Virus record (IMG/VR): IMGVR_UViG_3300021424_000040
Span: 1 to 55,149 of that record
Direction: 5' to 3' (one strand)
Source of the DNA: a virus
DNA: 55,149 bases
Part shown: positions 2,570-22,964 of the stretch, in pieces
Numbering within the stretch: the stretch's first letter is position 1
How the letters are laid out: each line of letters opens with the position of its first letter
Position numbers and translations under genes: made by a program
The notes under the pieces: generated by a model
Told to the model about the DNA's origin: nothing
What the model saw: only the letters and a program-made list of their open reading frames with translations
The model's database searches: none

Positions 2570-3415
2570 TCAGGAATACATCAAAATCTCCGTAGCAGGT
2601 TTAGCAGCGTATCCTGTGCTAGTTTTTTTTCTTCGTCCCGCTGTATATGTTACAGGAAATCGCACCAGATTTAGATCACCTTTTCTATCATCAAAGAATG
2701 TAGAACCATCACAACGATTACACAACATCACATGACCATCAGTTGATTTAGCATGTTCGATCAGTTTTTCTGTAGCGGTATCATCCCAACTTGTACCATA
2801 TTTGGTGAAACTATCCCTATATGGCGGATCAAAATAAGTAAACGAACCAGTAGGACAATCAATGTAATCACCACACAGAATGTTTACACGTTGAAGCAAC
2901 TCATTCCAAGCAAAAACATTTTGCTTATCATACACTACATCAGTTTGATTCAATAGACCAGCTGGAGTGCCATATCTACCATTTGTGTTCTTGTTAATCT
3001 GCCAAATACCGTTAAAACCAGTTTTCATGAGGAAGTACAGAACTCCCGCCTCAAATGGTTTTGACCATTGTTGGTAATCGTATGCGTGAGCATGTCTCAC
3101 TTCAAAGAAATACTTCTTCCTGTCTTCTTTAGACAAACAAATGTATTTTGCCTGAAAGACATCTACAACGTTACAAAACTCTTCTGGATTTTCTTTTACC
3201 GATCGGTAAATATTCATGATATTATCGTTAATATCATTGATATATGCGTGTTCGGGATTATATTTCTGCATGATATGCAAAAACATAGCGCCACCACCAA
3301 AAAATGGTTCGCTATAAGAAGTGATATTTACTGCACTAGGAAGATAAGGCAGTTGATATTTAAGGACTTTGGTTTTGCCGCCTGCCCACATGAATAAAGG
3401 TTTAATCTTGGTCAT
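2570..3415 (-). CDS. dam: DNA adenine N6-methyltransferase, D12 (Dam) class
   Basis: A SAM-dependent N6-adenine methylase of 281 residues from the chosen start. Visible motifs in D12-class order are MWAGGK at residues 9-14 (SAM contact), the Gly-rich FFGGGAMF at 38-45, YINDIN at 58-63, and catalytic DPPY at 196-199. Orphan phage Dam enzymes usually modify GATC, either to escape host restriction or to mark phage DNA; the target here cannot be read from the sequence. The frame stays open to 3451, but the ATG at 3415 (MTKIKPLF) overlaps the previous gene by only 14 bases and starts right before the conserved WAGGK, so I prefer it. No restriction partner is visible. Confidence 0.9.
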   Translation of the reverse strand: MTKIKPLFMWAGGKTKVLKYQLPYLPSAVNITSYSEPFFGGGAMFLHIMQKYNPEHAYINDINDNIMNIYRSVKENPEEFCNVVDVFQAKYICLSKEDRKKYFFEVRHAHAYDYQQWSKPFEAGVLYFLMKTGFNGIWQINKNTNGRYGTPAGLLNQTDVVYDKQNVFAWNELLQRVNILCGDYIDCPTGSFTYFDPPYRDSFTKYGTSWDDTATEKLIEHAKSTDGHVMLCNRCDGSTFFDDRKGDLNLVRFPVTYTAGRRKKTSTGYAAKPATEILMYS

Positions 3416-3617
3416 TCTGATAAGTAGGTGGATGATACTTAAGATATTCAAAGAAAGTTAGTTTCATTTCCTTGTGTGTCATGCCACAGTGTTTTGCTGC
3501 AGCTGGCAGAGTCATCTTAGCATGAAACAATCCTTCATTTGCTTCTCTGACGTTTTCTGGAGTGGTTTTAACTGGCACTTCAAATAATGCTGCTTTATTG
3601 ATTTTTAGTAAACCCAT
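3402..3617 (-). CDS. hypothetical protein, possible DNA-binding helices (71 aa)
   Basis: A small basic protein. Residues 35-60 (MTLPAAAKHCGMTHKEMKL) have the spacing of a helix-turn-helix (helix, Gly turn, helix with Thr/Lys), so it may bind DNA, but this is inference. The start at 3617 overlaps the preceding gene by 23 bases. It lies directly upstream of the methylase gene and overlaps it, so the two are probably co-translated. Confidence 0.55.
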   Translation of the reverse strand: MGLLKINKAALFEVPVKTTPENVREANEGLFHAKMTLPAAAKHCGMTHKEMKLTFFEYLKYHPPTYQNDQD

Positions 3618-4637: not shown

Positions 4638-4667
4638 ACTGTAGCACGGGTGTCAACCCCCTGTCAA
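4638..4667 (-). promoter_or_regulatory. sigma70-type promoter for the 1-4.6 kb small-gene block
   Basis: Read on the minus strand, TTGACA at 4667-4662 and TACAGT at 4643-4638 are 18 bases apart, 25 bases before the ATG at 4613. The -35 box overlaps the last codons of the halogenase gene. The flank around the -35 (CAGGGGGCTTGACAGG) is shared almost exactly with the psbA promoter. Confidence 0.7.
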
Positions 4668-6085
4668 GCCCCCTGACGAAATCCATCAATATAATCTAAA
4701 TGATTCATTGTTTGATCATTAAGTTCCGAAGATAAAGCGAACGGCGGAATATCTGAATAATATTTCCATTTATATCTACGTGCAGATAATGTGTGAAAAA
4801 TCATATCTGCATTAGTAATATCATTACCATCATTGCTGTCAAATCGTTCAATCACATCATCATAAAAATCCCAATGTACATTTTTATGATCTTTCCAAAA
4901 AAGTGTATCGTTCCTATAACAAGTTTTGTATTGTGCTAAAATAAAAGCAGCCCAAAATTTATACAAATGTTCTATAGATTTATTTGAAGTCCACAAACAA
5001 TGTTCATACACAGCTCCAGATCCATATCTCTTTTGTTGACTAAACAAATATTTTAATCGTATCAATGCATCTAAAGTTAATGTTATTCCAGGTGCATCCA
5101 AAGGTTCTAAAAATCCATTACACATACCAATAGTGCAAAAATTGCTATTAAAAGTTTTTTTACTATATCTTGGTTCGAATGAAACTAATCTAGGTGATAT
5201 GTTAGTATCTCCTATATCTTGTAAAAACTCTTCTAACGCTTGTTCATGTGTCACATGTCTATCACTAAAAACATACCCCGTCCCAATCCTAGAATATGTT
5301 GGTGTTATCCATCTCCATCCATATTTCATAGTTTTAGCTATCGTATATGGGTGGAACTGTTTACGTTTTTGTTTATATTCTAAAGGATAAACATATGCTT
5401 TATTGGTTAACAGTATGTCTGATAAATCTACATATTCTAGTCCAAGTTGATCAACGATCAAACTGTTTGAACCAGTTGCAAAAATAAAATAATCTGCTTC
5501 AATATGTGATCCATTTTGAAGTTTTAAAGATTTTATTCTGTTTTCGTCAAATACACAACCTAAAACAGTACTATGAATGACTTCAAAGTTATTTGTTTTT
5601 ATATGATTTGAAAGATAATCAATATATTTTGCAGCATCAAAATGCCAAGAAATAGGGTACTCGTCAAAATTTAATATGACTTCATTTGACCTCACAATGT
5701 TAAATAAATCTTTTGCATATAAATCATGAAATTTTGTTTGACTATCTCTATTAGATAACGAAGCAAAATACGATTTTGATTTTATTTTAATGTGATTCCA
5801 TGGAGTGCCTCCACGTTTAAAGTTGTGTAAAAAATCTTCATCTGACCAGTTTTTATAAAAAACTCCATATTTAACAGCAGCATCAGACTTCACGATAAAC
5901 TCTTGCATTTTACTGCCAATGTCAGCGTGAAAATCATTTAAAACTATAGTATTGGATTCACCAACTCCTATAGGCATTATTTCTGGTGAACCAATAATAG
6001 TAACTTTTTCTATGCTTTTGTCAATGGCAAAATAGTTTGCCGCCATCCATCCAGCTGCTCCAGTTCCAATCACACATATTTTCAT
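4664..6085 (-). CDS. prnA-like: flavin-dependent tryptophan-halogenase-like protein
   Basis: A 473-residue protein of the FADH2-dependent tryptophan halogenase (PrnA/RebH) family, which chlorinates or brominates an aromatic substrate through HOCl held at a lysine. Visible are the FAD fold GTGAAG (residues 7-12), GVGES (40-44) and AVK-x8-NW with Lys72 in the place of PrnA catalytic Lys79. FATG follows at 202-205, then a WxWxI box (GWRWIT, 256-261) with Thr where Pro is usual. FLEPLDAPG at 325-333 aligns with the PrnA active-site FxEPLES-type loop; the catalytic Glu is Asp330 and the adjacent Ser is Ala. It is last in a cassette with two 2OG-Fe(II) oxygenases, next to tail-fibre genes. The substrate is unknown; a virion protein is one possibility. 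No flavin reductase is visible. Confidence 0.85.
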   Translation of the reverse strand: MKICVIGTGAAGWMAANYFAIDKSIEKVTIIGSPEIMPIGVGESNTIVLNDFHADIGSKMQEFIVKSDAAVKYGVFYKNWSDEDFLHNFKRGGTPWNHIKIKSKSYFASLSNRDSQTKFHDLYAKDLFNIVRSNEVILNFDEYPISWHFDAAKYIDYLSNHIKTNNFEVIHSTVLGCVFDENRIKSLKLQNGSHIEADYFIFATGSNSLIVDQLGLEYVDLSDILLTNKAYVYPLEYKQKRKQFHPYTIAKTMKYGWRWITPTYSRIGTGYVFSDRHVTHEQALEEFLQDIGDTNISPRLVSFEPRYSKKTFNSNFCTIGMCNGFLEPLDAPGITLTLDALIRLKYLFSQQKRYGSGAVYEHCLWTSNKSIEHLYKFWAAFILAQYKTCYRNDTLFWKDHKNVHWDFYDDVIERFDSNDGNDITNADMIFHTLSARRYKWKYYSDIPPFALSSELNDQTMNHLDYIDGFRQGA

Positions 6086-6093
6086 AAAAATCT

Positions 6094-6456
6094 TTAATCA
6101 TATTTTACAAATGGAAAATTTTCAAAACAACTATCTCCATTTGAGGTGAAGATATGAACATATACATTATATTCCTCATAATCCATTTCGTTTATGAAAG
6201 GAAACCATTCTTGAGCTCTTTCTCTAGCGGCTATCTCATCTTCAAAAAACAAAACGTTATGCTTTTGAGATAATAAACAATCGACAACTTCTTCTGGACA
6301 TATTTTTTTGTAATGTTTAACAACTTCATCAATTTTTTGTTGATCTGACGATGCCTGAATACCAACTGCTTTGAAATACATCAAAGATTTCTGCTTAAGA
6401 GCAGCATATTCAGACATAGCTTGCCAAAAACTTTTTGGTTCGTAATATGATTCCAT
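6094..6456 (-). CDS. hypothetical protein of the halogenase cassette (120 aa)
   Basis: A 120-residue protein, helical in the first two thirds (YEPKSFWQAMSEYAALKQ) and ending with a beta-rich segment (YNVYVHIFTSNGDSCFENF). No known motif. Its start overlaps the preceding oxygenase stop by one base (TAATG) and the halogenase starts nine bases after its end, so the three are probably one transcript. It may be a partner or substrate-presenting protein, which is inference. Confidence 0.65.
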   Translation of the reverse strand: MESYYEPKSFWQAMSEYAALKQKSLMYFKAVGIQASSDQQKIDEVVKHYKKICPEEVVDCLLSQKHNVLFFEDEIAARERAQEWFPFINEMDYEEYNVYVHIFTSNGDSCFENFPFVKYD

Positions 6457-7151
6457 TAGTCAGAAAATCTCCTTCTTAGTTGCATGAAAATGTGAGTTAA
6501 TCGATTATTAAGATTATCAAATTCTGGTGTATTTAGTTTGTCTTTATACTCGTTGTTTATCTCATGTATATCACAAATAAGTTCCCTTATCATGGAATCT
6601 CTTATTTTACTTTGAACCCAAAAAACAGCAACATCTCTGGTTCCGCGTGTAACTTCAGTAACTTTATGTATGTAAGATGTAGGATAAAAAATAGCGTAAC
6701 CAGAATCCAGTTTAAAAGACTGAGTTTGATTACCTATTTGTAAAACAAGTTCTCCGCCATCATAATCAGTTGGAGGAGATAAGAAAAGAGTGCAACTATA
6801 ATCAGTTCTGATATAATCATTAGTGCTCTTATGTTTCATTATGGAGTTATCGTTATGGAATCCATAATACATCCCTTCAGTATACCGAGCAAAATTCATT
6901 ATTGATATAGATACAGGCAAAATATAGTTTCTAAAATCATAACAATCCTCCAAAGCATGTGCAATGATATCAGAAACTTCTAGATATTTTTTATCAGTAT
7001 AAGACTCTCCATGATCTGCTTCTAGATTATTTTTCTTATCTAGATTAATAGTTTTACCACCCCACAAACCAGATTCAAAAATAGCAGAGTCATAGTATTT
7101 TTTTATTTTATTGATTTGTATATCATTCAAAACTTTCATAACATAAAACAT
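6456..7151 (-). CDS. 2OG-Fe(II) oxygenase, PKHD/prolyl-hydroxylase type
   Basis: A 231-residue double-stranded beta-helix dioxygenase. The Fe(II) triad is His99-x-Asp101 (YGFHND) and His162 (SYIHKVTEV). Arg172 (GTRDVAV) would hold 2-oxoglutarate, and YDGGEL at 130-135 is the characteristic loop of the PiuC/YbiX and prolyl-4-hydroxylase branch. Such enzymes hydroxylate Pro or other side chains using O2. The start at 7151 follows a GGGGG run; Met5 at 7139 lacks a ribosome site. It is next to the halogenase and tail genes, so a virion or host protein may be the substrate (inference). Confidence 0.85.
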   Translation of the reverse strand: MFYVMKVLNDIQINKIKKYYDSAIFESGLWGGKTINLDKKNNLEADHGESYTDKKYLEVSDIIAHALEDCYDFRNYILPVSISIMNFARYTEGMYYGFHNDNSIMKHKSTNDYIRTDYSCTLFLSPPTDYDGGELVLQIGNQTQSFKLDSGYAIFYPTSYIHKVTEVTRGTRDVAVFWVQSKIRDSMIRELICDIHEINNEYKDKLNTPEFDNLNNRLTHIFMQLRRRFSD

Positions 7152-7157
7152 ACTTTA

Positions 7158-8072
7158 TCAACCCCCAGTATTTTCTAAATAATCTTCTGCGTTTTGTACC
7201 ATTCTATCTATATAAGATTTAGAGTTAGTGTTGCTAGGTGGAACAAACTGCAGCGGTGGGACAATAAGTTCAGTATCAATAGCATCCAATGATTTTTTAA
7301 TTTCTTGTCGTATTCTCTCAAAATCTTCCAGTTCTATTTCGCTTCCATCGACAGACCAATCAACTCTAGTTGATGGTAAAGATAACCAAGCTTGGAATCT
7401 TAGAAGCTTTCTCTTTATAGTTTCAAAATAATATTGATTAAACTGATCTGGAGTAGATAAATATTCTACTTCTTTATTTGGATATCTATCAATATAATGT
7501 TCAGGTATAATAGGAAATTTTGCAGTTAGAGGATTGTTTTCAAACTCTGGATCTATTTCTGGAAGATCTCGCAAATACTGCCTGTATTTTCTATATAAAT
7601 CTTGTTTTTCTGTATCTCTTACCGACCCATCATCAATAAAAATCCAATCAGTCATATAAAGCATTCTTTGCCTTAAAAGACGAAGATTAACCTGCAAAAT
7701 ATTAGTAAACTCATTTACTTTTTTTTGAACTTCTTCTTTTGCTTTTTGCAAATCTAATAATCTTGCTTGCTCATAAAATGATGCAAAAATGTTGTATGCA
7801 TCTTTAGCTTGTTCTAGAGTTGCTTCAGTAAACATGTAGTTTTTTTCTGAAGTTTGACGATATCTATAATCATAGATTTGTTTTTTTCTTTCGCAGTTGT
7901 ATTCTCCGCTCTCATAATACTCAAACAAAAGAATATAATCTTTATCATTGTGCCAGAAAGATCCCAACTGCTCACAAAGCAGCAATCTTTTTTCGTCATC
8001 TAAAGTAACTACCTGCCCCTGATAAACAATAGTACTTTCTTTTAGATTAGCTTGAAGAATAATGTTTGCCAT
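7158..8072 (-). CDS. tail-fibre assembly chaperone-like protein (304 aa)
   Basis: The middle of the protein (about residues 130-170) carries R-x-LL-R-x-RML-x-MTDW followed by YRKYRQYLRDLPE. This matches the pattern of the phage tail assembly chaperone (Phage_tail_APC) family: R..LL..TDW, then Y R..LRD.P. A long helical segment precedes it (residues 85-130), and the C-terminus is acidic and helical. It lies between the fibre genes and the oxygenase/halogenase genes, a typical place for a fibre chaperone. The N-terminal 80 residues are unassigned. Confidence 0.6.
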   Translation of the reverse strand: MANIILQANLKESTIVYQGQVVTLDDEKRLLLCEQLGSFWHNDKDYILLFEYYESGEYNCERKKQIYDYRYRQTSEKNYMFTEATLEQAKDAYNIFASFYEQARLLDLQKAKEEVQKKVNEFTNILQVNLRLLRQRMLYMTDWIFIDDGSVRDTEKQDLYRKYRQYLRDLPEIDPEFENNPLTAKFPIIPEHYIDRYPNKEVEYLSTPDQFNQYYFETIKRKLLRFQAWLSLPSTRVDWSVDGSEIELEDFERIRQEIKKSLDAIDTELIVPPLQFVPPSNTNSKSYIDRMVQNAEDYLENTGG

Positions 8073-8082
8073 TGATTATAAC

Positions 8083-8697
8083 TTATTTGAGTTTCGGAAC
8101 TTTGATATACCAACCAGTCAAAATATATTTATCTTCAGTAAATACAGTATTTCCTTTGTGAACATGAGTCATTCCAGCTGGCCAAATAACAACTGTACCT
8201 GCTTCTGATTTTATCCTGCGTTTTTGGTATAAAAACTCCGTTTCTGCCTCTCCATCTGGAAGAGTATTTAAATATATTGCCCAAACTAGTTCTCGATGGG
8301 CATGATCATATGATCCAGATTCATAATGCCACACATGATATCCGCCTCCTGGGGGAGTTTTTTGCATCTTAATATCTGTAGATATGATAGGAACGGTTTT
8401 TAACTGACCATATTCTCTGATATAATCCATCACACATGACTGAAGATATTGATTGATCTCTCCAGTAAACTCTGTATTATGTGCATTGATCATCAAAGAC
8501 AAATCTTTACGACCAAGATTATTATCATGAAACTGTTCAGTGCCATCCGCAAAAGAAGCTCTATCATTTGAGAAGACATCATCAAAATATTTTATATATT
8601 TTTTGCAAAGAGATACTGGAACGTGTTTTTTCCAAACACCAATAAACTCATCAAAATCACCCTCCATCAACTCTAGAGGTTTAATAGGTATAGTCAT
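8083..8697 (-). CDS. 2OG-Fe(II) oxygenase, second copy
   Basis: A 204-residue dioxygenase of a family often seen in cyanophages. Candidate metal ligands are His124-x-Glu126 within GYHVWHYESGS and His178 or His180 in GMTHVHKGN. Lys190 (EDKYILTGW) stands where an Arg usually binds 2-oxoglutarate. The iron-binding acid is Glu rather than the common Asp. It differs clearly from the other oxygenase here, so the two are not recent duplicates. It is the first enzyme after the three collar proteins and ends before the chaperone-like gene. Confidence 0.8.
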   Translation of the reverse strand: MTIPIKPLELMEGDFDEFIGVWKKHVPVSLCKKYIKYFDDVFSNDRASFADGTEQFHDNNLGRKDLSLMINAHNTEFTGEINQYLQSCVMDYIREYGQLKTVPIISTDIKMQKTPPGGGYHVWHYESGSYDHAHRELVWAIYLNTLPDGEAETEFLYQKRRIKSEAGTVVIWPAGMTHVHKGNTVFTEDKYILTGWYIKVPKLK

Positions 8698-8712
8698 AGG
8701 TCACTCCAATAT

Positions 8713-9783
8713 TTAAAATGCTTTAATGATGTATTTATTTCGGTGATAAGCTTGCATCATAGACAATGTTTCTGCACTTGTCAAGTTAGTAGTTAATCTG
8801 CTGTCAAATAAAGTTCTAACTGAAGAAGAACTACTTACTTTTAGTGTACCTACGTTACATTCCAACCCAAGTTCAGTAACAGAAATAGTTTTACTTGCCG
8901 TGTTACCATATCCAACTGCACCTGAAGATATTCCTTCGTTGCCACCTTCTTGATCATGACCCCAAGTTCTAGCCTGCCCAGATGTATTTGCGGATATTTG
9001 ATGACTATGTTTTCTTGTTGTTGGAATATCTCCTGGACTTGCATTTTCTACTCTTCTTCGATAAGAAATAATACTACCAAATGCACCGTTTAAACAACAA
9101 ATCAACTCCGTTCCTCCTGGATCAGGTGGATTTACAATACTAGGTCCACCATCTGCTGAAGTTGCTGCTTCTTCATTCGTTAATCTACTATGTGGCAATA
9201 CATGAGTATGAGGTGGAGCAGAATATAGTTGTGTAGAACCAAAAGGACCAAAATTTTGTGTAATGTTACCAGATAATGTTATTGGTGCTTCAACTTCTAC
9301 ATTTTCAAATCCTCTAGATTTTTTACTAACAATTTCAAAAGTATCATCCTGAGTTGGGGTTTGCTGTCTAATATCAGAAATAACGTAAGAACCACCAATA
9401 CCACCAGGATAGTTAACATCTATTGGAGTCCCCCCACCTGCTCCACTATTAGGTGTTAATGTTGCACTGCCTGGAATATTACCATCTGATCTACCAGTTC
9501 CAGTCAAATATCTTGCCCTATAGTTAGGTAGGTTAAAAGTTCCTGTCATATTTGGATATGTACCACTTACAGTGCCGCCATAAGTAGTTCCTATTATTTC
9601 ATACAAAGCATAATATTGGTTTGGATTTAAACTAGAACCATCACATTCCAACCAACCTGGATAATCAACATCAATATCCCAATCATCAGTCGTGCTAGTC
9701 CACCCAGAAGGTTTTGGTATACAAACAACTGTTCCAACAGTTGCTCCACTTTTTTGTGATTGTTTAGAATATTTTACTGCCAT
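8713..9783 (-). CDS. tail-collar-domain fibre protein 1 (356 aa)
   Basis: The N-terminal 110 residues hold a phage tail collar domain: PGWLECDGSSLNPNQYYALY, then IIGTTYGG and FNLPNYRARYLTG. This pattern (GW..CDG, ..L...IG..YGG, F.LPDLR..) is typical of T4 gp12-type fibres and microcystin-dependent MdpB. The rest is beta-rich, Gly/Ser/Thr-rich and His-containing (HTHVLPHS, RKHSHQIS), and the end YHRNKYIIKAF resembles the other two proteins. It is probably a receptor-binding or short-fibre subunit. It is the last of three tandem collar genes. Confidence 0.8.
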   Translation of the reverse strand: MAVKYSKQSQKSGATVGTVVCIPKPSGWTSTTDDWDIDVDYPGWLECDGSSLNPNQYYALYEIIGTTYGGTVSGTYPNMTGTFNLPNYRARYLTGTGRSDGNIPGSATLTPNSGAGGGTPIDVNYPGGIGGSYVISDIRQQTPTQDDTFEIVSKKSRGFENVEVEAPITLSGNITQNFGPFGSTQLYSAPPHTHVLPHSRLTNEEAATSADGGPSIVNPPDPGGTELICCLNGAFGSIISYRRRVENASPGDIPTTRKHSHQISANTSGQARTWGHDQEGGNEGISSGAVGYGNTASKTISVTELGLECNVGTLKVSSSSSVRTLFDSRLTTNLTSAETLSMMQAYHRNKYIIKAF

Positions 9784-9784
9784 T

Positions 9785-10648
9785 TTAATATTTTATTAAA
9801 TATTCTACTAAAATAAATGGTGGTTGAACATCATTTATAACATAAGTATCATCTATATTTATTTTAACATCTGTAAAAACTTTATCTTCTACTGGCGCTG
9901 TCAATGCTGCAATATTTCCAGATATACTTTTAGTTGGTGGCGATCCATACTTAACGGTGTGTGAGTGCAGTGTTGCTTCTTCAGAAAGATCATCACCAAT
10001 CTGAGTGTTTACAGCTTCTCCTCTAAAAGTACACTCAGCTCCAAAGGTTTGTGTAGTGTCATATGAATGATTTTCAGTCACTGCGGTTCCTCTAAGACTT
10101 ACGGTGTTGGCCCAGTGACCATGTGGAAGCATACTATCAGAAGTTACAGTAGATTGATCTGTTGATCCAGGAATAGATATAGCTAGATTACCATTTAATG
10201 TTACAGATCTTGCTGGAATAGCAAAAGAACCTGTATATTGAATAGCAACTGTTATTTGACCTTCCCCCTCTGTAGATTCTAACTCAACATCAACGCCAAC
10301 TTTAGGTTGTAATATTCCACTTGCAGCACCAACAGCATAATAACTTTCATATCCTCCAGATGAAGGACTTGCTTTTATGTATTTTGACCCTAAATCAGGT
10401 AGTTGCATTTCATCATTTTCCAAATCAACATTATCTTTTTTGTAAATTGATTGAGCACCAGTACCTAAAATCCTAGCAAGATTTGGATAAACATCTGCTT
10501 TGACTTTACTGCCATCACACCTAAGATATCCTGCGGGAACATATACTCTCCAATCTTCACCTGTTTTGCCATCCAATTTTCTAGGAAATGGCACTATAGT
10601 TCCAGCAGTTGTTCCGTATTTTCCTTTTTCGTAAGAATAGTTTGCCAT
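9785..10648 (-). CDS. tail-collar-domain fibre protein 2 (287 aa)
   Basis: A collar domain occupies residues 15-105: PAGYLRCDGSKVKADVYPNL, then ILGTGAQSIY and MQLPDLGSKYIKA. The remainder is a beta-rich shaft/tip with HGHW and LHSHTVKYG His clusters, which in short tail fibres may bind metal. It ends VQPPFILVEYLIKY, like its neighbours. The gene is one base from the flanking collar genes, so the three are translated in series. It is the shortest of the set. Confidence 0.8.
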   Translation of the reverse strand: MANYSYEKGKYGTTAGTIVPFPRKLDGKTGEDWRVYVPAGYLRCDGSKVKADVYPNLARILGTGAQSIYKKDNVDLENDEMQLPDLGSKYIKASPSSGGYESYYAVGAASGILQPKVGVDVELESTEGEGQITVAIQYTGSFAIPARSVTLNGNLAISIPGSTDQSTVTSDSMLPHGHWANTVSLRGTAVTENHSYDTTQTFGAECTFRGEAVNTQIGDDLSEEATLHSHTVKYGSPPTKSISGNIAALTAPVEDKVFTDVKINIDDTYVINDVQPPFILVEYLIKY

Positions 10649-10649
10649 T

Positions 10650-11753
10650 TTACCAAGCCTTGATAATATACTGTATTCGTAACGAAGGAGTTGATGTATT
10701 TACATTAAACTGCAACAACTCTTCAAAAGTTTCGTTTACTGGTGCTACATTACCAGTGGTAATATCATTAACAACAATATTAGATTGTACCTGAAAACTA
10801 CCTTGATTTACAGAATAACCAACTGGACCATGTACGTGAGATCCCAATGAGTTATCATTACTTGAGTTAGCAGTTGGCCATACACTAAAAACATCACTTA
10901 TAGTGGTAGCAAAGTTAAAATTACCTGTGTTAACTAAAGTATTATCATTACTTCCTAACCAGTTTTTAGGTGCGGTATTAATCCTCTCTGGAGCATCAGT
11001 AACTCTGTCATTATTACTGTTGAATCCTCCACCTAAAGGAATGCCACCAGCAATAGAGTTTTTATAATAGTTATTTCTGTTTGTTTGAGCATTATTACAC
11101 TCGCTCAACAAAAAGTTATCATTATCACAACAGTCACCTGTCTGAAAAAGGTCAGGATCAAATATACCACCAGTCGACGGGTCGCACCCAGTAAAGACTG
11201 GATTACTGCCGAACTCGGTCTGGCATCGTTCTACTCCTCCGCTTCCTCTTCCAATACTAGAAAAATTACCAGTATGTGTGTGAGTAGGCCAATGATAATC
11301 TCCCAAAGTTCTAGAAGCAACAGTAACTTCATCAAAATATGCGGGGGGATTGATAGTTTGACCCGTTATTTTAGCAGTATATGTCCCCGAAGCAAGATTA
11401 TTATCAATAGCAACAGTTAGTGCAAGATTAGATGTGTAAATAACATTACTTAGATTTGATTGATTAGTTCCTATTTGACCTGAAAACACCGAAGAAGTTC
11501 CTGAAGGAAGGTAACTTGTTTTCATATCTGCTAAAGCTTTAGCATTTAAATCTGGCAACCTAAAAAAGTTTCCAGACCCACCATAATATTGACCAATAAT
11601 ATCAAACAAATCTGGATAATCAACGGATTGTTTAGTAGATCCATTACATGCGATCCATCCCTTAGGGATACTATCTTCGCCACCAGACCACGGCATAATA
11701 GTGCCGATGGCCATTCCTTTCATTGTTTTTAGTGCATTATAGTTAATAGACAT
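10650..11753 (-). CDS. tail-collar-domain fibre protein 3 (367 aa)
   Basis: The collar domain is clear at residues 15-85: GTIMPWSGGEDSIPKGWIAC, NGSTKQSVDYPDLF, IIGQYYGG and FFRLPDLNAKAL. The later part has HTHTGNF and SHVHGPV His motifs, a Cys-rich patch (GDCCDNDN) and the shared end LRIQYIIKAW. It follows the giant virion gene by three bases, so it is probably expressed from the same late promoter. It is likely a fibre or collar subunit; which receptor it binds cannot be read. Confidence 0.8.
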   Translation of the reverse strand: MSINYNALKTMKGMAIGTIMPWSGGEDSIPKGWIACNGSTKQSVDYPDLFDIIGQYYGGSGNFFRLPDLNAKALADMKTSYLPSGTSSVFSGQIGTNQSNLSNVIYTSNLALTVAIDNNLASGTYTAKITGQTINPPAYFDEVTVASRTLGDYHWPTHTHTGNFSSIGRGSGGVERCQTEFGSNPVFTGCDPSTGGIFDPDLFQTGDCCDNDNFLLSECNNAQTNRNNYYKNSIAGGIPLGGGFNSNNDRVTDAPERINTAPKNWLGSNDNTLVNTGNFNFATTISDVFSVWPTANSSNDNSLGSHVHGPVGYSVNQGSFQVQSNIVVNDITTGNVAPVNETFEELLQFNVNTSTPSLRIQYIIKAW

Positions 11754-11756
11754 ATC

Positions 11757-14700
11757 TTAGATTTCCATTATCCACCAACCTTGTTGCGCTGAATCAATGG
11801 CAGTTCCATTACCATCCAAGTTACCAATATAAAGAAGACCAAAAGCAGCATTTGGCGTATTAACTAAAAGTTCTCCGCTATCCCAAACAGTAGATCTATT
11901 TCCCGCCAATGTTCCAGTATCATCTCCCTGTATAGGAGTTGCATTCGAACCTTGTTTTGGTGCTCTAATAACTAGAGTACAGTTAAAGGTCAATCCACCA
12001 GAAGCATCAACAAATCTAATCATATCGCCAGTTTGAGGGGTTGCAGGTAACTTAAGAACCAAAGCTCCAGTACCACTTGGTTTAAGTATATAGTTGACAT
12101 TAGATATTAGCGTTGGTGCTGTTGCATCGGTGTTTGTTCCCGCGCTTAGATATAACCATTTTCTACCACCAGAGTTGGTAAAGTAGTTATTGATTCCTCC
12201 TAAATCAACCGAACCATTATTATTTACAGCAAACCTTTCAGTGCTGCTAGCATTAACAACAAAGTCGCCACCGCTAACAGTTAGATCTCCAGTTACAGTC
12301 ACATTATCTGCAAATGTAGCATCATTTCCACTCAATGTTAATACTGTAGATCCAGTACTAGACTTAATATCATTACCTGTTACAGTTAGATCGCCAACAA
12401 CGGTTACGTCGGATCCAGATAATGTTAGAGCAGTGTTTGTGCTTGATTTAATATCATTTCCACTTACTGTTAGATCACCAAGAACAAATGTATCTCCAGA
12501 AGAAGCATCAACATTTAATCTAGAAGTACCACCTACTTGAAGATCGATTAACTTGGAAGCATCATTTGAAGCAGTATTTGTGATATTTAACTTGATACCA
12601 GTAAAAGTAACCGCCGAACTGTTCCAAGTAGCAGTAGCATCTAATACATTAACATCGGTTGTTAATGTTCCTTGTGTAATAGTAGTTTCTCCATTACACA
12701 TATCAACCGTGAATCTATTCGTAGTGCTATCTTTGAGTGAGAATAGTCTATCAGCAGTTGTAGCAGAACAGGAACTTACAAGGTTAAATGGACCATAAAC
12801 AGTCAAACCACCAAGAGAAGTTGCGTCACTTACAACAGTTGCCCCATCAGTCGAATCAACTTCAAACTTAGTTGATCCAGCGCCATTAGTTACTTTAAGT
12901 TTTTGTGCTACAGATCCCGTTGAAGTACCAATCTTTACAGCTTCACCACTGCTACCAGAAACGTTTCTAGAAACAAAGATATAATCCCCTTGCGCTAATG
13001 TTCCACCAAACTCAGACAGATTAAATACGTCAGTTGTGCCACTTCCATCAACGTTTGCGATCAACCAAGTAGAGTCTAAAGCAACATTAACTTTTTTAAT
13101 ATTTGAATCATCAGGATGATTTGTTTTTGTTGGTAGGAAAGTACCATATGGTTGTCTAGTAACAATAATATAATAAGGAGCAGCAGTAGTTCTTCTCAAA
13201 CCACCCGAAGCAACTCTGACGATTTCTGGGTGTGTTGCAGTAGATCCAGATCCAGATACAGCACTATCAATCAAAATATCATCATTTTCAGAATAAGTTG
13301 GTGCAGACTCTAGAGGTAGATAGTATTGATTTCCAGACAATGCTGCTAATGCAGTGCCATCATCAGCAAGATAAGTGTTAATAGCATTTTGGAAGAACGT
13401 TCCACCCCAAGGTCCAGCACCAGCTGTATCTACTTTATTATCAAATCCACTAACAATCGTCACTAAGTCTACATTTTTATCTACGGGAGGAGCTGAAGGA
13501 TATCCCGTATGTGACGATATAGTAGACCCTAAAGATGCTCTAGCGCCATTAAACGAGAACGTAGCAGTGCCACCATCTAGAGTTATATTGCCCTTCACTA
13601 GTAGTGAAGCATCAACTGTTAAACTATTTTTAACTGTTGTAGTGCCACCCTGACCACCAATATTTAAAACTGATGCATTCAATCCGAAAGATATTTCAGA
13701 CGCAGATCCAGAATCAGAGAAGAAGTTTACTTTGCCCGCAGTAGTTCCTAGAGTAACTGTATCACTCAACCCTTTATTAATACCAATAGCAACATCACCC
13801 CAGAACTTAGTTGATCTAGTTTTAACTTCTAAGAAACTATTTGATTCATTTGCATTATAAGCACCACCAAGAGTTAACTTAGAAGAAGTAGCAGATGTAG
13901 ATGGATTTCCAATATCAACTCTCACATTTGCAGAAGAATTGAAAATATCTAATGTGGTAGAACCAGTTGCGGCAGTTGCAAGATTTACATCGTGAGTTCC
14001 AGTTCCTGTGTTTCCGATATTTAATGTTTGATTTACTGCAGCATTACCAATATTAATCGTCTGAGTTGATGTTGTAATATTTGCAATATTAAAAGAAGTT
14101 GCTCTCGCAGCAAAGTTTACTGTTGCTGGATAGTTGCCAATATTGAGAGTACCAGTAAATGTAGTATTATCAACAAAGTTAAACGTACCTGTAGTTACAG
14201 TAGTTGTGATGTCTCCGCCATTAACTTCAATATCAGATTCAAATCTAAAGTTTCCAGTGATTCTACCATCACCATCAACTACTATAGTTCTATCAAGTTC
14301 TGCATTTGTTATATTAATACCAATTCTATTAGTAGAAGTTGAAAGTCTAAATGTTGCTTCACTATTTGGATTTGCGCTATCACCGCCAATCAAGAATGCA
14401 TTTGAAACTCCATTGAATGTTCTGTTGGTTGGATTGGAGTTAGCAACATAGTTATTTGGACTGGTTGCTAGAGTCTTACCACTGAAGAATGCAGTACCAA
14501 CTAAATCTAAGTTTGCTCTAGGTACTGTTTCATCCGAAATAAATGCATTGTTGTACGCAGAATGTGGAGATCTAGAAACAGTATTGATTCCTAGTTTATA
14601 ATCACCAATATTTGATGTCTCTGTTCTAAGAGCTTCAGTACCAATGATTCCCCATTCTTTCCAATATGTGCTACTTCTAGAAACAACAATGTTTGGTTGA

Positions 14701-17700
14701 GTTTGTGTAATGATTGAGTATGTGTTGCTTTCTACTGTAATCTGCTGTCCTTCAGCTGGAGTAACATCTAGGTAAGTTGCACTTGAACTAAATGGATTCG
14801 CAACTGTATTAACTACACGCCAAATACCATTAATCTGAGCAATAGGAGATTGAGCACCAACAATCTTAATCTGAGTTGATTCAGTAATACTTAGAAGTGT
14901 ATTTGTCCAAGGAGGAGAACCAGCAACATTCCAGTTCAAGCGAATAATATTTCCACTTCCAAATCCTTGAATGCTAGCAATCTGTGGATTGGTAATACCA
15001 GAATCTCCTTGTTTAGTGATAACACTATAAGTATTCGCAAAAATCCAACCAGCTCCACCAGTTACATCTGTTTGAGATCCTTTGAGAAGAACATCGCCAG
15101 AAATAGGATTTCTAGAACCAAACTCAATGATTTGAGTTGAAGGTCCAGAACCACCAAAAGGAGATGCTTGATCTGGAGTTTTATTTGTAATATGTGTTCT
15201 GAATGTATAACTTTGCTCACCACGAGCATACATTCTTAACATTCCGAGAGAAATGCTATTCTTTTCAATCTTAATATCTCCAGTCTTTTGACCAAGAGAT
15301 GTTATATTTAACTTATCATCATCATTATTTAGATCAATATTAGTTTTTACTGTGATTGCTGGATCTACTGGACCACCAGAACTATTCAGAGCATTTACAT
15401 TAACAAAGATAGGTGAAGTAAATACACTTGGTTTAGTTCCATCAAATCCTTCAACAGTAATGATATCCTTGAAGGTAACAGGAACATCAAAGGTGGTAAC
15501 AAGAGTTCCAATATCTTCATTATCGTCTTCCGATTCAACAACTTCTGCTTTTTCTAAGAATGTTTCTTCGCCCGTGATAGCATTAATCTTACGGTTACCG
15601 ATATAAAGGTCACCGTTAGAGTTTAAACCAGTGTAGAATACGATACCAGCATCTTCTCTCTTTGCCTGAGCGTAGAAGTCTTGAGTATCAGTAAGAACAA
15701 CTTCCTGACGCGCAGGGAAACCAGTAGAGTAGTTACCAGGACCGAAACCAAGATATTCAAACGTATGGTTACCAGAACGTGCAATAGATGGTCTACGAAG
15801 TTCTACATATAGTCTCTTCTCAGTAGGATACTGAGAATCTCCCGAGATAGGAATCTTTCTCGTTTCCGAACCAGCAGAAGCAGGACCAGATTGAGCTTCG
15901 ATGATGTTTTCATCAGTGAAGCTATAAGTACCAGAACCAGGATCTTGAACAAAATCAAGAACAGCTTCTTTAGTTAGTGAGTTTTTAGAATCATTAACTG
16001 TAACCAATCCATGAACGTAGTTGTCTGCTGCTGAAATAGTTGCAGGGGGATCCTTGAGAGAATCATCAAGAGCTCTGTACCATTCTGGATCGTTCTTATA
16101 AAACTCTGGATATAGTTTGGAGATTGGTTGCGAGAATCTGAAGTTTCTGAAGTTTTCTCCAACACCAGAACCTACTGGGAATGGTCTAATGTCACCACGA
16201 ACGCAGGTTAGATAGTATACACCATCTTGCTGATTTGGAATCCTTCTTCTAATAGTATCGACTGAGAAAATATAATATGATCCCTCCAAGTCTTCAACAT
16301 CAGTAACTTCCGCAATCGTGTAACTAACGTTGGTGGAATCTTTCACAACATCTCCAGGAGTTAATGTGTAAACATTAGCACCCTCTACAGCATATAGATT
16401 TCTTGATTTATCTGTTCTACCACCATCAGGTTCATCCATCATCACTGCTGAAACAGAACCTTGCTTAAAGGTGGTTGTTTCAAAAACATTGAAATCTAAC
16501 ACCGAGTTTCCAGTGATTCCCTTAAGAATCAAGTAATACTCATTTTCATACTTCAAGAAAGCATGTACATATCCAGAACCAGAACATGCTCCTTCCCATT
16601 CAATAAAGTTATCTGAATCTAAATCGGTTAGACTTGCTTCAAAAGTTCCATCTCCTCCCTGTGGAGAAGTAATCTTTACTGTAGTGAAGATTGTAGTCTT
16701 GTAAGCTGCATCGACATCATGATCAAATACAGTTAACTCAAGGTAATTTACGCCATTGATTGTTCTTTGTCTAGCAGACTGAATGCTAGCAGTAATCTTT
16801 GAGTTGGTTTGTATCTTTACGGGATTTAGATATGGATCATAAACCGTATCATCAAAACCAGCTGCATTTAACTGAGCATATGTCCAACCCAGTTTTTCGC
16901 TTACCTGTTGATTAGCAGAGTTTAATGCATAGAATGTTGCAAATGGACTTGCATTGCCAGTTGGTTTTAATAGAATTTTTTGAGCAAGTAGTTTTCTCTT
17001 GGAGTCCGTTCTAAGTTTGAATACAAAACCATTTAGAGGATCTCTTACAGTAGTTCCTCTGTAAGCAGGAATAACAAATCTAAATCTGTAAACTCTGTCT
17101 TGTTTAGTTCTAGCATCATTAACTCTTTCATAGAAAGAATCTGATGTTTTTGCGTTATCACCAACAGAATCATCACTATAATCAGACTGTTTTAGTCTAG
17201 TAATAATATTGTTTGTAGAACCATCTGAAACAGTATTTAAATACCACCTACCCTTAGGAGTAGATGCAACATCTACTGTAGGATCAAACTTCAATGGTGA
17301 TCTCTTCTTGTTGGCAAACGTGTAGAAGGTAGTTCCACTATTCTCAAAGAACTCTACTGGGTTTTCATTTGCAATAGCATTTTGAGCAGTTAAGAAAATT
17401 TTAAACTTCTTGGCAATGTAGTTACCATTTCCATCATCAAAATATCTGACATAATACTCTGTAGTATCATTAAAAAGACCAATGTAAGTGTTAGCTGGAT
17501 TTGGCAACGTAGAGTTCGCACCCAAATCACTACCAGTCCTAAAAAATACTCGTTGTAATGTGACACCTGCATCATTGACAGGCACATCAAAGATATGGGG
17601 AGATTCTGTTAAAAAAGTAGTGGAATCAAATAAAGTGGTCTTATATTGATGCAAATCATACGAAATATCTTGCACATATTGATAAACATCAATAATAACA

Positions 17701-20700
17701 TTTTGATTAATATTTTCCGTTTCTGAAGAATAAATGTAAATACCAGCAGCTGCATTCTCTTCGCTAGTAGCAAGAAGAATTTTTTGTTGATCAGTTTTAG
17801 AAAAGTCTCCAGTGGCATAGTCGAATGGTTGAGTTCTTCTGCCAGGAGCGATTACAAAATACTTAGTATTTGTACTAAATCCTTTTGGTAGACGAACTAA
17901 TCGCTTATCGACATTAGATCCAGGTTTTGCTCTAGGAACAAGACGAACAGGAGTACCTGTTTCTAGATTATGTGGATTAGCTAATAGATTTTCACCTTGA
18001 ATCTCTTGAAGAGTAAAAGCAGTAGCTCTTTGAGATAGTAGTGCAGTATCAATCTCAGGAGCAGTTGGAGTTACTGAGTTTACACCATTTTGCAGAATAG
18101 TGGAGATAATCGCAAAATAAGTATTGAGAGCACTATAAATGCTGGAGCATTCCCCATCTCCACTATAAGTATAATCTTGTGTAACTGTGTTATCTACAGA
18201 TGGTTCTATAGTAGATGTCCAAACACCTTCTTCTAACTGGAAGAATACTTTAACACTAGTTCCAGCAACAGCAGTTTTAGTTGTGCCTAGATTAAACTTA
18301 CTACCTTTAGTTCCTAACTCAATCTGCGTGGAGTTTACGATTCTCTTAATATAAGAATCTGCTGGAATATAAGCAGTACTGATATTAGTAGATTTAGGAA
18401 CTACCTTACCATCAACGACTTCTTCATACTGATCATTATAATTTGTTAGTTCATTTCCAGTATTATTTCCAGTATTTGAAGGTATATTGTTTACTCCCAC
18501 TACTTTCATACCAACAGTCAATCCTCTGGTTGAAGGAACTGTTACAATAGCAGAGTTTGCAGTATTTACAGTTGCATAAGTATTGTGATTTCTCATCGCA
18601 GAAATACACAAATCTCTCACATAGTTGTAAGCATCAAGAGTTTCACTGAGTTCATCTTGAATATAGTCAAGTGTAAATCCATCATTTACTCCATCAGTGT
18701 CTTGTGTTACCCCAACATAATATGCTTTAGCAGCATTAATAGTATTAACATTTCCACCGAGTCTAAGGTCCGCAACGATTGCTTCTACAATATATCCAAT
18801 GTCGCGCTTACACTTGCTGTTTTCAGATACTCTAGACCATGCACCAGGATTTGGTGTTGGTAAAGAGTTTAGATTACCAGAAGAAATAGATGTGGTTAAA
18901 ATTGCGGTTAAAGTATCAATCGTAGTTCTTACGTTAGCACAATCATATAAACCATTATTTACGGCGGCAAGATTATTAAGATTTCCAGCAGTAAGAGTGG
19001 TAGTAACTATACCAAATAAGTTATCAATAATGCTTTTTGTGCTTGCACATGAGTTTACACTTGTATTAGATCCAGTTGCAGGATCTGGTAGGATAGTTAG
19101 ATCTTTAACTGTTAGTTGATTTGTAATAGCTTGCTTACAAAGATCTCTAGCAGCATTAAATGCAGCAATAGATGCAGTGATTTCTCCTGCTAAACCATTC
19201 GTAAGAAGTGCATTGCCACTAAAATATTCTTTAAGATTAGCAATAGTATACTCATTTCCACCAAAGTTTAAATCATTTGCAACCGCAGAAACAATAATAC
19301 CGATGTCTCTTTTGCATTTTGTACTTCCAGCAGTAGACTCTCCAGTATTTCCAGGAATGGCAGCAACTTGAGAAGTTGTTAGCGTAGCAAATGCACTATT
19401 AATAATTTCCTGTTTATTGGCAAAAATAAGATCACTTGCATTCTTTAATATACTAGCAGCAGCAGTTCTGTTTGCATAATCAATCGTTACTGTTGAGATA
19501 TATGGCACACCAATAGCAGGAGTACTAGAAGGAGCACTTAAAGCAGTATATTTAAACTGAGTAGCAGTAAGTCCACTAGAAAGAACAGTGAACTCACCAT
19601 TATATGCTGATTGATTTAATCCAATAACACTGATTGAAGTACCAACAGTTAAGTTATGAGGTGATGAACATGTTACCGTTACAGTAGTTCCACTTGCAGT
19701 CATTGAAGCAACTTGCAGTGAACTTGTGGAAGATAGCATATTAGCAATAGCTAACTTACACAAGTCTCTAACACGATTAAATGCAAATACAGACTGTGTT
19801 TCTTCTCCAGTTAAACCATTGCTTAATGGTTGACCATTATTACCGAAGTAAGATTCGGTTGCTTCAACCATATGAATGTTGCCACCATCATAAAGATCAT
19901 CTGCAATAGAATCAATAATAATCCCTAGGTCTCTGCGGCACTTGGTTTCATTAGGATTCACAAATCCAGGGGAAGAAGTAACCATTTCACTGTATGCAGT
20001 GTCGATGATTTCCTGTCTGTTTGCACGGATTAAGTTAGATGCATCTCTATATCTACCAGTATCTGCAGTGATACTTGGGTTTACATAAGGAATGTTTTGT
20101 AAATCTGGGTACTTTTCTAGAATATACCCAAATGCTTCTGATTGAATAAATGTTTGGTTCGCTTCAATCAGATTAGCAGCATCTTGACGAAGATTATATT
20201 CTGTGGTAAATGATGCCCCAGCTGGATTTAATGTGGTAAGAGAAGAAGCCCATCTTTTAAATCCAGAAGGACTTAATACTGCGCTCTTTTCTGTTGGACC
20301 AGACTCTCCAGTGCCAGCATTTAACTTAACTTTGATCTGTTCATTTACCCTCGCACCAAGTCTAAACTTATTTACAGACGCAGCTGGTCTGTTTTCTGGG
20401 TCTTTTACACTGTCACCAGCAAGATAAATTCTGCTGGTATTAGTGGTATCATTTGTAAGATTGATTTGAATAGGATAATACTGTTGTTTGGTTTTATCGG
20501 ACGTTTTGAGTTCTTGTGGAGGAATAATGTCTGTGATGTATCCACCCTTATCTTGGTTAAAGGAAAATCCTTTGAAACCAATCGAGTGCATCGATGTGTT
20601 ACCAAAGTTTGAGTTAGAGTTGGTGATAGACATATCACCACCAGACTCAAGCAGGAAGTGATCGGCAAAACCTACAGCGAAGATCGAAACGTTTTGAATG

Positions 20701-22391: not shown

Positions 22392-22465
22392 AGCCCAAGG
22401 TCGGACTTGAACCGACGACCTACGGTTTACAAAACCGTTGCTCTATCCAGCTGAGCTACTCAGGC
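22392..22465 (-). tRNA. trnT: tRNA-Thr (anticodon UGU)
   Basis: A 74-base cloverleaf. Acceptor GCCTGAG pairs with CTTGGGC (two G-T pairs). The D arm contains GCTCAGCTGGATAGAGC. The anticodon stem ACGGT/ACCGT encloses loop TTTGTAA (anticodon TGT), and the T arm is GTCGG-TTCAAGT-CCGAC. CCA is not encoded (TTCC follows), so it must be added. It reads ACA codons, common in AT-rich phage genes. Confidence 0.95.
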
Positions 22466-22466
22466 A

Positions 22467-22733
22467 TTAATCATCTTTAGGAAGTAAATCTGGATTTTCT
22501 ACTTCTAACTCAAACATCAGAGGATGCATCTCTTCCATAATCAAATAGTTACAATAAACAAACATGTCTTCATCATCGTAATCACGGTATTGGAGTGCTT
22601 CTGATTGAACTGAAGGATGTTCTTGTATTATTTGAGGAAGTTCATCAAATGTATATGGAACACCTTGAATGAAATACATACGAACTACCTCACCCATATA
22701 AAAGCAATATGCTTGAGAGAGTGTGTATTTCAT
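22467..22733 (-). CDS. hypothetical protein between tRNA genes (88 aa)
   Basis: An acidic protein starting MKYTLSQAYCFYMGEVVR and ending NPDLLPKDD, with no motif I recognise. It lies between tRNA-Leu and tRNA-Thr, ending two bases before the latter, so it is part of the same transcript. It would be made wherever the tRNAs are expressed. The function is unknown. Confidence 0.65.
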   Translation of the reverse strand: MKYTLSQAYCFYMGEVVRMYFIQGVPYTFDELPQIIQEHPSVQSEALQYRDYDDEDMFVYCNYLIMEEMHPLMFELEVENPDLLPKDD

Positions 22734-22764
22734 AACATTTCCACTACAATGTATTTAGTGGAAA

Positions 22765-22847
22765 TAGGGCGAGGGGGACTTGAACCCCCACAGGCTAAGC
22801 CCGACAGATTTTAAGTCTGGTGTGTCTACCGATTCCACCACCGCCCC
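22765..22847 (-). tRNA. trnL: tRNA-Leu (anticodon UAA)
   Basis: An 83-base class II tRNA. Acceptor GGGGCGG pairs with TCGCCCT (two G-T wobbles). It has the Leu-type D arm TGGTGGAATCGGTAGACAC, anticodon loop CTTAAAA (TAA), a long variable arm, and T arm GGGGG-TTCAAGT-CCCCC with discriminator A. It reads UUA, a codon favoured in AT-rich genomes. CCA is not encoded. Confidence 0.95.
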
Positions 22848-22861
22848 GTGGTGATGACAGT

Positions 22862-22890
22862 ATTATAGCAGATGCTCAAGTGACTGTCAA
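22862..22890 (-). promoter_or_regulatory. consensus sigma70 promoter for tRNA-Leu / 88-aa gene / tRNA-Thr
   Basis: TTGACA (22890-22885), 17 bases, then TATAAT (22867-22862) on the minus strand: a perfect consensus 15 bases before tRNA-Leu. It starts two bases after the 3' end of the CAU tRNA, so that tRNA belongs to the preceding unit. Confidence 0.85.
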
Positions 22891-22891
22891 G

Positions 22892-22964
22892 TGCTGATTG
22901 TGGGGATCGAACCCACCTGTATCCGATTATGAGTCGGGTGCTTTCACCAGATAGCTAAACCAGC
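22892..22964 (-). tRNA. tRNA with CAU anticodon (Met, or Ile2 if lysidine-modified)
   Basis: A 73-base cloverleaf. Acceptor GCTGGTT pairs fully with AATCAGC (one G-T pair). The D arm is GCT-ATCTGGTGAA-AGC. The anticodon stem has one weak C-A pair around loop CTCATAA (CAT), and the T arm is GTGGG-TTCGATC-CCCAC with discriminator A. It lacks initiator features, so it is elongator Met or an AUA-reading Ile2 tRNA; sequence alone does not decide. CCA is not encoded. Confidence 0.9.

Follow-up and report, generated by a model that had tools for sequence, protein, structure and literature searches.

The stretch analysed here is IMG/VR virus record IMGVR_UViG_3300021424_000040, 55,149 nucleotides in full and hereafter called the window, which carries a five-gene enzyme cassette directly behind its tail-fibre genes. 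Its psbA gene, PhoH, Thy1 and T4-type genes for baseplate and tail tube mark it as a genome fragment of a T4-like cyanophage. The features given below with window coordinates all lie on the minus strand, along which the fibre block opens with a giant fibre/virion structural protein (11757–22295, 3512 amino acids (aa)), assigned from its positional equivalents in S-PM2, Syn1, S-H9-1 and other phages, which are annotated either as virion structural proteins or as short tail fibres. This is followed by Collar/short tail fibre protein 1 (10650–11753, 367 aa; PF07484 E 3e-16, phrog_4591 E 2e-49), a T4-GC736 type Collar protein 2 (9785–10648, 287 aa; phrog_4714 E 3e-45, PF07484 E 1.5e-6), whose family is found in 59 phage records, and Collar/short tail fibre protein 3 (8713–9783, 356 aa; PF07484 E 2e-13). 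The cassette starts 15 bases past the third of these Collar-domain proteins and comprises a T4-GC240 type 2-oxoglutarate (2OG)-Fe(II) oxygenase (OGB, 8083–8697, 204 aa; PF13640), a T4-GC741 type tail (fibre) assembly chaperone (TAC, 7158–8072, 304 aa; PF16778, phrog_4697), a PiuC/PKHD-type 2OG-Fe(II) oxygenase (OGA, 6456–7151, 231 aa; PF13640, NF003974 and PiuC in the PDB), a small protein (SML, 6094–6456, 120 aa), placed by phrog_4883 and by positional and structural orthologues, and a flavin-dependent halogenase-family protein (FDH, 4664–6085, 473 aa; PF04820) of an apparently virus-only clade, called DAPG here. Spacing between successive genes is 10, 6, -1 and 8 bases, in agreement with the tight single-strand layout behind the fibre genes described by the first-pass annotation. 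That annotation had also called the two oxygenases unrelated, which does not hold, as both match PF13640 and phrog_61.

Using tblastn on marine cyanophages we found that the hits to OGB, TAC, OGA and SML lie next to one another and keep this order. In six annotated cyanomyoviruses of at least five genera (S-CAM4, Sf-CH1b, S-H9-1, Syn1, ACG-2014h and S-PM2) the module directly follows the genes for short tail fibres and collar proteins. The common order runs giant short tail fibre, gp12, tail collar, (virion structural genes), gp12/structural, and continues with 2OG (OGB), tail assembly chaperone, PiuC-type 2OG, (second small 2OG) and SML; the S-H9-1 arrangement is that of the window minus the halogenase. 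An IMG/VR scan with an OGB alignment yielded 80 OGB loci, ranked by their similarity to module members, in which TAC was the next gene in 63/79 and a Collar gene the previous one in 54/76, with OGA after TAC in 48/60 and SML in 43/60. Many of the exceptions come from contig ends or from the lowest-ranked, weakly matching loci. OGB-TAC-OGA-SML is an old collinear block of the cyanomyovirus short-tail-fibre/collar region, its 2OG active sites are intact, and the association of the oxygenases and chaperone with fibres is strong. The proposed tie of the cassette enzymes to fibre genes, and with it a gene order common to other cyanophages, stands for these four genes in the six cyanophages and in most of the 80 IMG/VR loci, but is lineage-specific for the halogenase, whose position is shared only by relatives of 88–100% identity and most of whose clade lies elsewhere. 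Chance adjacency or an annotation artefact is refuted by this conservation and has a negligible probability, since divergent genomes keep the order, the family matches are strong and the structure is confident.

The cassette had also been thought richer in A/T than its left neighbours, and its GC content is indeed 31–32% against 37–39% in the surrounding DNA. The module lies 4–5 GC points below the phage's own fibre genes in S-CAM4, S-PM2 and Sf-CH1b as well, so low GC is no sign of a recent arrival, and we rejected recent acquisition of the cassette on the ground that several relatives show the same low value. Among the RefSeq annotations, the 'DNA endonuclease V' (T4-GC166, GC61) of cyanophages corresponds to the second small 2OG gene of the module (L096:25648-26163, L098:24124-24633 and L093:21013-21528), and this name looks to be a misannotation because the Syn1 protein is a PF13640 2OG-Fe(II) oxygenase by Pfam, and phrog_274 covers OGA and OGB too.

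Both oxygenases retain the residues of their family. OGA is the stronger of the two PF13640 matches in the cassette (E 3e-12 and 2e-7), scores 165.9 bits against the PKHD-type/PiuC NCBIfam equivalog NF003974 (cut-off 143) and matches PDB PiuC at the sequence level with E 2e-25. Its HxD iron motif (H99 and D101, 6849–6857) is invariant together with H162 and R172 across eight orthologues, giving the complete HxD...H...R pattern. It therefore belongs by sequence to the PiuC/YbiX PKHD-type hydroxylases (PDB 9GHL, 3DKQ), with all active-site residues present, and differs from them in being phage-encoded and in a fibre operon. OGB scores 32.6 bits against PF13640 (cut-off 27), and in its probable HxE iron motif (H124 and E126, 8320–8328) glutamate replaces the aspartate of HxD; H124, E126, H180 and K190 are invariant across eight orthologues and supply the facial triad and the basic residue for 2OG binding. 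Its nearest annotated relative is an Sf-CH1b protein with 59% identity, named as a prolyl-4-hydroxylase-domain protein, while a sequence search of the PDB with OGB found no match. The OGB family also includes ORF23 of S-TIM4 (L179:16481-17167; 1e-59). During evolution of S-TIM4 on sub-optimal hosts, most of the genes that acquired mutations were fibre or baseplate genes, and this 2OG gene was mutated along with them (PMC6224464). We rejected this as proof of a fibre role, since ORF23 neighbours CP12 in the baseplate region, has no collar gene next to it and has many paralogues; it is suggestive only, as indirect support of uncertain weight.

TAC matches PF16778 (E 5e-7, 29.8 bits, cut-off 26.6) and phrog_4697 (E 3e-36) and is located beside collar genes, which together place it among the tail-fibre chaperones with a predicted role in fibre folding. 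Relatives occur in 51 phage records under the RefSeq name 'tail assembly chaperone'. The TAC alignment proved too poorly conserved to serve as a query for the collection. SML matches phrog_4883 (E 1e-8) and is remote in sequence, with 14–30% identity to all but its closest relative, and its model is confident (predicted local distance difference test (pLDDT) 93) with a predicted alpha/beta fold. In a viral structure library this model matched the protein after PiuC in ACG-2014h and proteins of S-WAM2, ACG-2014i and S-RSM4, all cyanophage proteins of the module type, whereas the PDB gave no match.

The description of the FDH as a tryptophan-halogenase-like flavoenzyme is well founded, with a PF04820 Trp_halogenase match of E 6e-73 (246.7 bits, cut-off 21). 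The AlphaFold2 model has a pLDDT of 91, and its top Foldseek hits are all Trp halogenases (PrnA, RebH, Thal and PyrH; E ~1e-32, template modelling (TM) score 0.76–0.85). With these it shares the fold, the flavin motif GxGxxG (GTGAAG at residues 7–12), the catalytic lysine (Lys72, 5870–5872, equivalent to PrnA Lys79 and invariant in 38 aligned sequences) and both Trp of the WxW motif. It differs from them in a sequence identity of only ~22–25%, in the absence of a biosynthetic cluster, in a shorter C-terminal region that does not align to the PrnA tail with the Trp-binding residues, and in the catalytic loop, where D330-A331-P332-G333 (5087–5098) replaces E346-S/A347-T/N348-G/S349 in PrnA numbering. 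In PrnA the backbone amides of Thr348 and Gly349 hold the chloride, and proline at the Thr348 position has no backbone NH, so one halide donor would be lost. This Asp-Ala-Pro-Gly loop is present in 36/36 members of the FDH clade and in 0/94 other FDH sequences. The clade (36–100% identity) forms a single branch with a long stem (Shimodaira-Hasegawa-like approximate likelihood ratio test 100). All members read GWRWITP and EPLDAPG. A bacterial source was sought with two peptide patterns in 84,980 bacterial and archaeal species genomes and no member of the clade was detected, from which the clade appears to be confined to viruses.

Halogenation was the weakest part of the first-pass annotation, since the loop that holds the catalytic Glu and the halide in known enzymes is altered throughout the clade. 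Two published signatures mark active halogenases, Fx.Px.Sx.G and FX[DE]PX[EFL] (PMC8407142). The FDH reads F325-L-E-P-L-D-A-P-G and matches neither, with Asp for the catalytic Glu346 and Ala for Ser, and halogenation is therefore doubtful. It may instead be a flavin monooxygenase that hydroxylates some substrate on a halogenase fold, a possibility that we rate somewhat below an even chance. The clade-wide loop and the expected loss of a halide donor favour such a hydroxylase, and there is precedent in QhpG, a flavoprotein resembling halogenases that dihydroxylates protein Trp (PMC7876137). Against it stand the invariant Lys72, the retention of a W-x-W-x-x-P motif associated with blocking monooxygenation (as WRWITP, both Trp and the Pro of the WxWxIP region being kept and Ile changed to Thr clade-wide), and the low activity left in PrnA after Glu-to-Asp exchange (PMC8407142).

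The placement of the FDH behind the module is confined to those near-identical phages, and we rejected the idea that a halogenase was part of an ancient fibre cassette; it is a lineage-specific addition to the module. Members of its clade occupy several genomic places, with the nearest Collar gene 16–17 kb away in the long records L007 and L013 and ~3.5 kb away in L028 and L029. In L010-L012 the DAPG FDH is flanked by five 2OG oxygenases, a sulfotransferase and an 1144-aa phrog_27227 protein (L010, ~6900–14523), and this oxidative cluster has no Collar genes. The FDH of L028 (6645–8756; likewise in L029) is 703 aa long with a C-terminal DUF6445 extension, which we considered as an OGA homologue and discarded, as BLASTP and PDB searches were empty and there was just an HxD...H pattern by eye, resembling that of a 2OG oxygenase. 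A flavin reductase (PF01613) was sought in 8 phage records, some of them fragments, and none was detected.

Other FDH lineages do stand beside fibre and oxygenase genes. Among ten annotated phages, one or two FDHs lie behind giant structural and fibre-type proteins in S-RIM44, Syn10, P-TIM40 and S-SZBM1, in each case with a row of 2OG/JmjC_2 genes after them, and FDHs lie at other places in Syn1, S-B64, HTVC008M, S-SSM7, P-SSM2 and S-H38. The VirX1-type pair of the first four phages recurs in related contigs. Short (~370 aa) and divergent FDHs with a canonical EPLEATS follow OGB-TAC-SML in L120 (12069–13175), L124 (5684–6793) and L131 (12028–13149). Fibre-family neighbours were present at 18/55 canonical FDH loci and 2OG genes within 5 kb at 38/55, while in 13 long records, which are not independent, a 2OG gene lay within 1.5 kb at 9/16 FDH places against 3.0 expected (P ~6e-4). 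The Syn10 island (L019:3406-17299; compare S-RIM44, L018) contains fibre-tip proteins (Gly_rich_2), the presumed VirX1 gene, a second FDH, several 2OG genes and JmjC_2 (PF08007), a family that includes known protein hydroxylases. The 530-aa Syn10 FDH, CPUG_00131, is probably VirX1 (PDB 6QGM), judged by length and source. As VirX1 sits in a separate fibre-oxygenase island, the pairing of FDH and fibre genes arose more than once, and the occurrence of separate FDH lineages beside fibre-oxygenase clusters argues for a functional tie rather than for any one substrate. VirX1 and the window FDH share the fold family and are both cyanomyovirus-encoded, and they differ in a distant sequence, another part of the tree, a different fibre cluster with different 2OG neighbours, and a canonical ESTG in the VirX1 type in place of DAPG. 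According to the review from which we take the details of VirX1, it prefers iodide in vitro (PMC8407142); the content of its island suggests that its natural substrate is a fibre protein. In S-PM2 the FDH gene (NC_006820.1, 121319–122608) appears broken because it has one in-frame stop.

Our preferred reading is that the cassette is a module for the maturation of tail fibres to which one more enzyme is optionally added, a mechanism to which, as a whole, we give a probability of roughly 0.52. For substrate, timing and product we infer the following scheme. TAC would hold new chains of fibre or collar protein before they trimerise or while they do so, and OGB and OGA would hydroxylate side chains on these exposed chains using O2, Fe(II) and host 2-oxoglutarate, a hydroxylation that could make the tips that grip the host more stable or adjust their chemistry. 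Where present, the FDH would obtain FADH2 from a host flavin reductase and might oxidise the same fibre or collar proteins a second time, at an aromatic residue, either by halogenation or, given the altered halide loop, by a hydroxylation like that of QhpG. That a fibre chaperone is encoded between the two oxygenases counts for such fibre maturation. Flavin oxidation of an aromatic residue in a ribosomal product would have parallels in SrpI, an FDH-fold enzyme that brominates peptide Trp (PMC10858898), in the halogenase MibH, and in QhpG and LodB/GoxB for peptidyl-Trp hydroxylation, whose substrates are precursors of ribosomally synthesised and post-translationally modified peptides or quinoprotein subunits and not phage fibres. 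The likeness to LodB/GoxB/QhpG would be functional only, as the LodB NCBIfam model gave 19.1 bits (cut-off 400; E 6e-4) over 95 residues of the Rossmann part. Collagen prolyl/lysyl hydroxylases and their chaperones offer a further analogy, and no more than that, in which 2OG oxygenases and a chaperone likewise act on fibrous trimers before folding, the oxygenases on both sides being of the 2OG superfamily.

Several points weigh against fibre maturation. A modified fibre residue has not been observed to date, and we know of no phage substrate for any of these enzyme families. The window's fibre proteins, unlike collagen, have no G-X-Y runs of the kind that would point to prolyl hydroxylation, and collagen-like fibres as a prolyl-hydroxylase substrate were rejected. 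The OGB family is large (560 places in 373 phage records), with many members not beside fibres, and ranking the 80 OGB loci by similarity biases that sample toward the module. Most of the window's FDH clade lies away from fibre genes, and adjacency itself may come from shared late expression or from a hotspot of recombination.

The chief competing explanation is auxiliary metabolism, in which host small molecules or the 2-oxoglutarate balance are what the oxygenases and the FDH target, the fibre region being merely a hotspot of gene acquisition. This is the published view of these genes (PMC3037559, PMC9602691, PMC2984593), and also of PrnA, with cyanophage 2OG oxygenases, of which one genome holds up to 24 (PMC9602691), read as acting in 2OG/NtcA nitrogen signalling or DNA repair (PMC3037559) or in host reprogramming (PMC9602691). 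Many cyanophage 2OG genes do lie outside fibre regions, and VirX1 takes many small aromatics in vitro (PMC8407142). Furthermore, host-recognition regions of cyano- and pelagimyophages are, in the part of the published account available, hypervariable tail-fibre islands with extra enzyme genes, where glycosyltransferases and auxiliary metabolic genes are described and an oxygenase-chaperone module is not noted (PMC7029224). However, a hotspot leaves unexplained the collinearity of OGB-TAC-OGA-SML behind collar genes across genera, with a chaperone in its midst, and the cassette has no partner biosynthetic gene, and we regard auxiliary metabolism as unlikely, at somewhat over a one-in-four level of credence.

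More unlikely again is that the FDH is an ordinary halogenase of a free aromatic metabolite, placed by chance behind the fibre module here. Its fold and Lys72 are those of Trp halogenases, its clade is scattered over several genomic places and its present location is common only to the 88–100% identical relatives, all of which count for it, but the unmatched signature motifs, the short C-terminal tail and the recurrence of FDH, oxygenase and fibre genes together in separate lineages speak against it. Also unlikely is the most elaborate form of fibre maturation, a dedicated oxidation system for the host-recognition fibres, made of two 2OG enzymes and a chaperone, to which one branch added a virus-only flavoenzyme turned from halide chemistry into a peptidyl-aromatic hydroxylase, leaving fibre tips with non-standard residues.

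Cyanophages are rich in 2OG oxygenases and frequently carry halogenase genes, with roles usually ascribed to host metabolism. The conserved fibre-chaperone-oxygenase module offers another answer, that phages complete their receptor-binding proteins by chemical modification, which virion mass spectrometry could test, and such cyanobacterial viruses may, on the sequence evidence, chemically modify the fibres with which they grip their hosts. In the literature searched, coverage of which was incomplete, we found no paper in which modification of fibres is connected with the 2OG oxygenases or halogenases of cyanophages. The module also points to where the natural substrate of VirX1 may be sought, and the analysis marks out a clade of the halogenase fold that is seemingly confined to viruses and whose catalytic chemistry is altered.

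Elsewhere in the window, a 303-aa open reading frame at 730–1641 has the look of a TIM-barrel glycoside hydrolase by eye and matched nothing in Pfam, PHROGs or NCBIfam. Just upstream of the giant fibre gene lie tRNA genes for Thr, Leu and Met (22392–22964), and S-H9-1 has tRNAs near the equivalent spot. Downstream of the cassette, at 2570–3451, is a D12-class N6-adenine DNA methyltransferase (PF02086, E 2e-27), which is also found in L002-L003.

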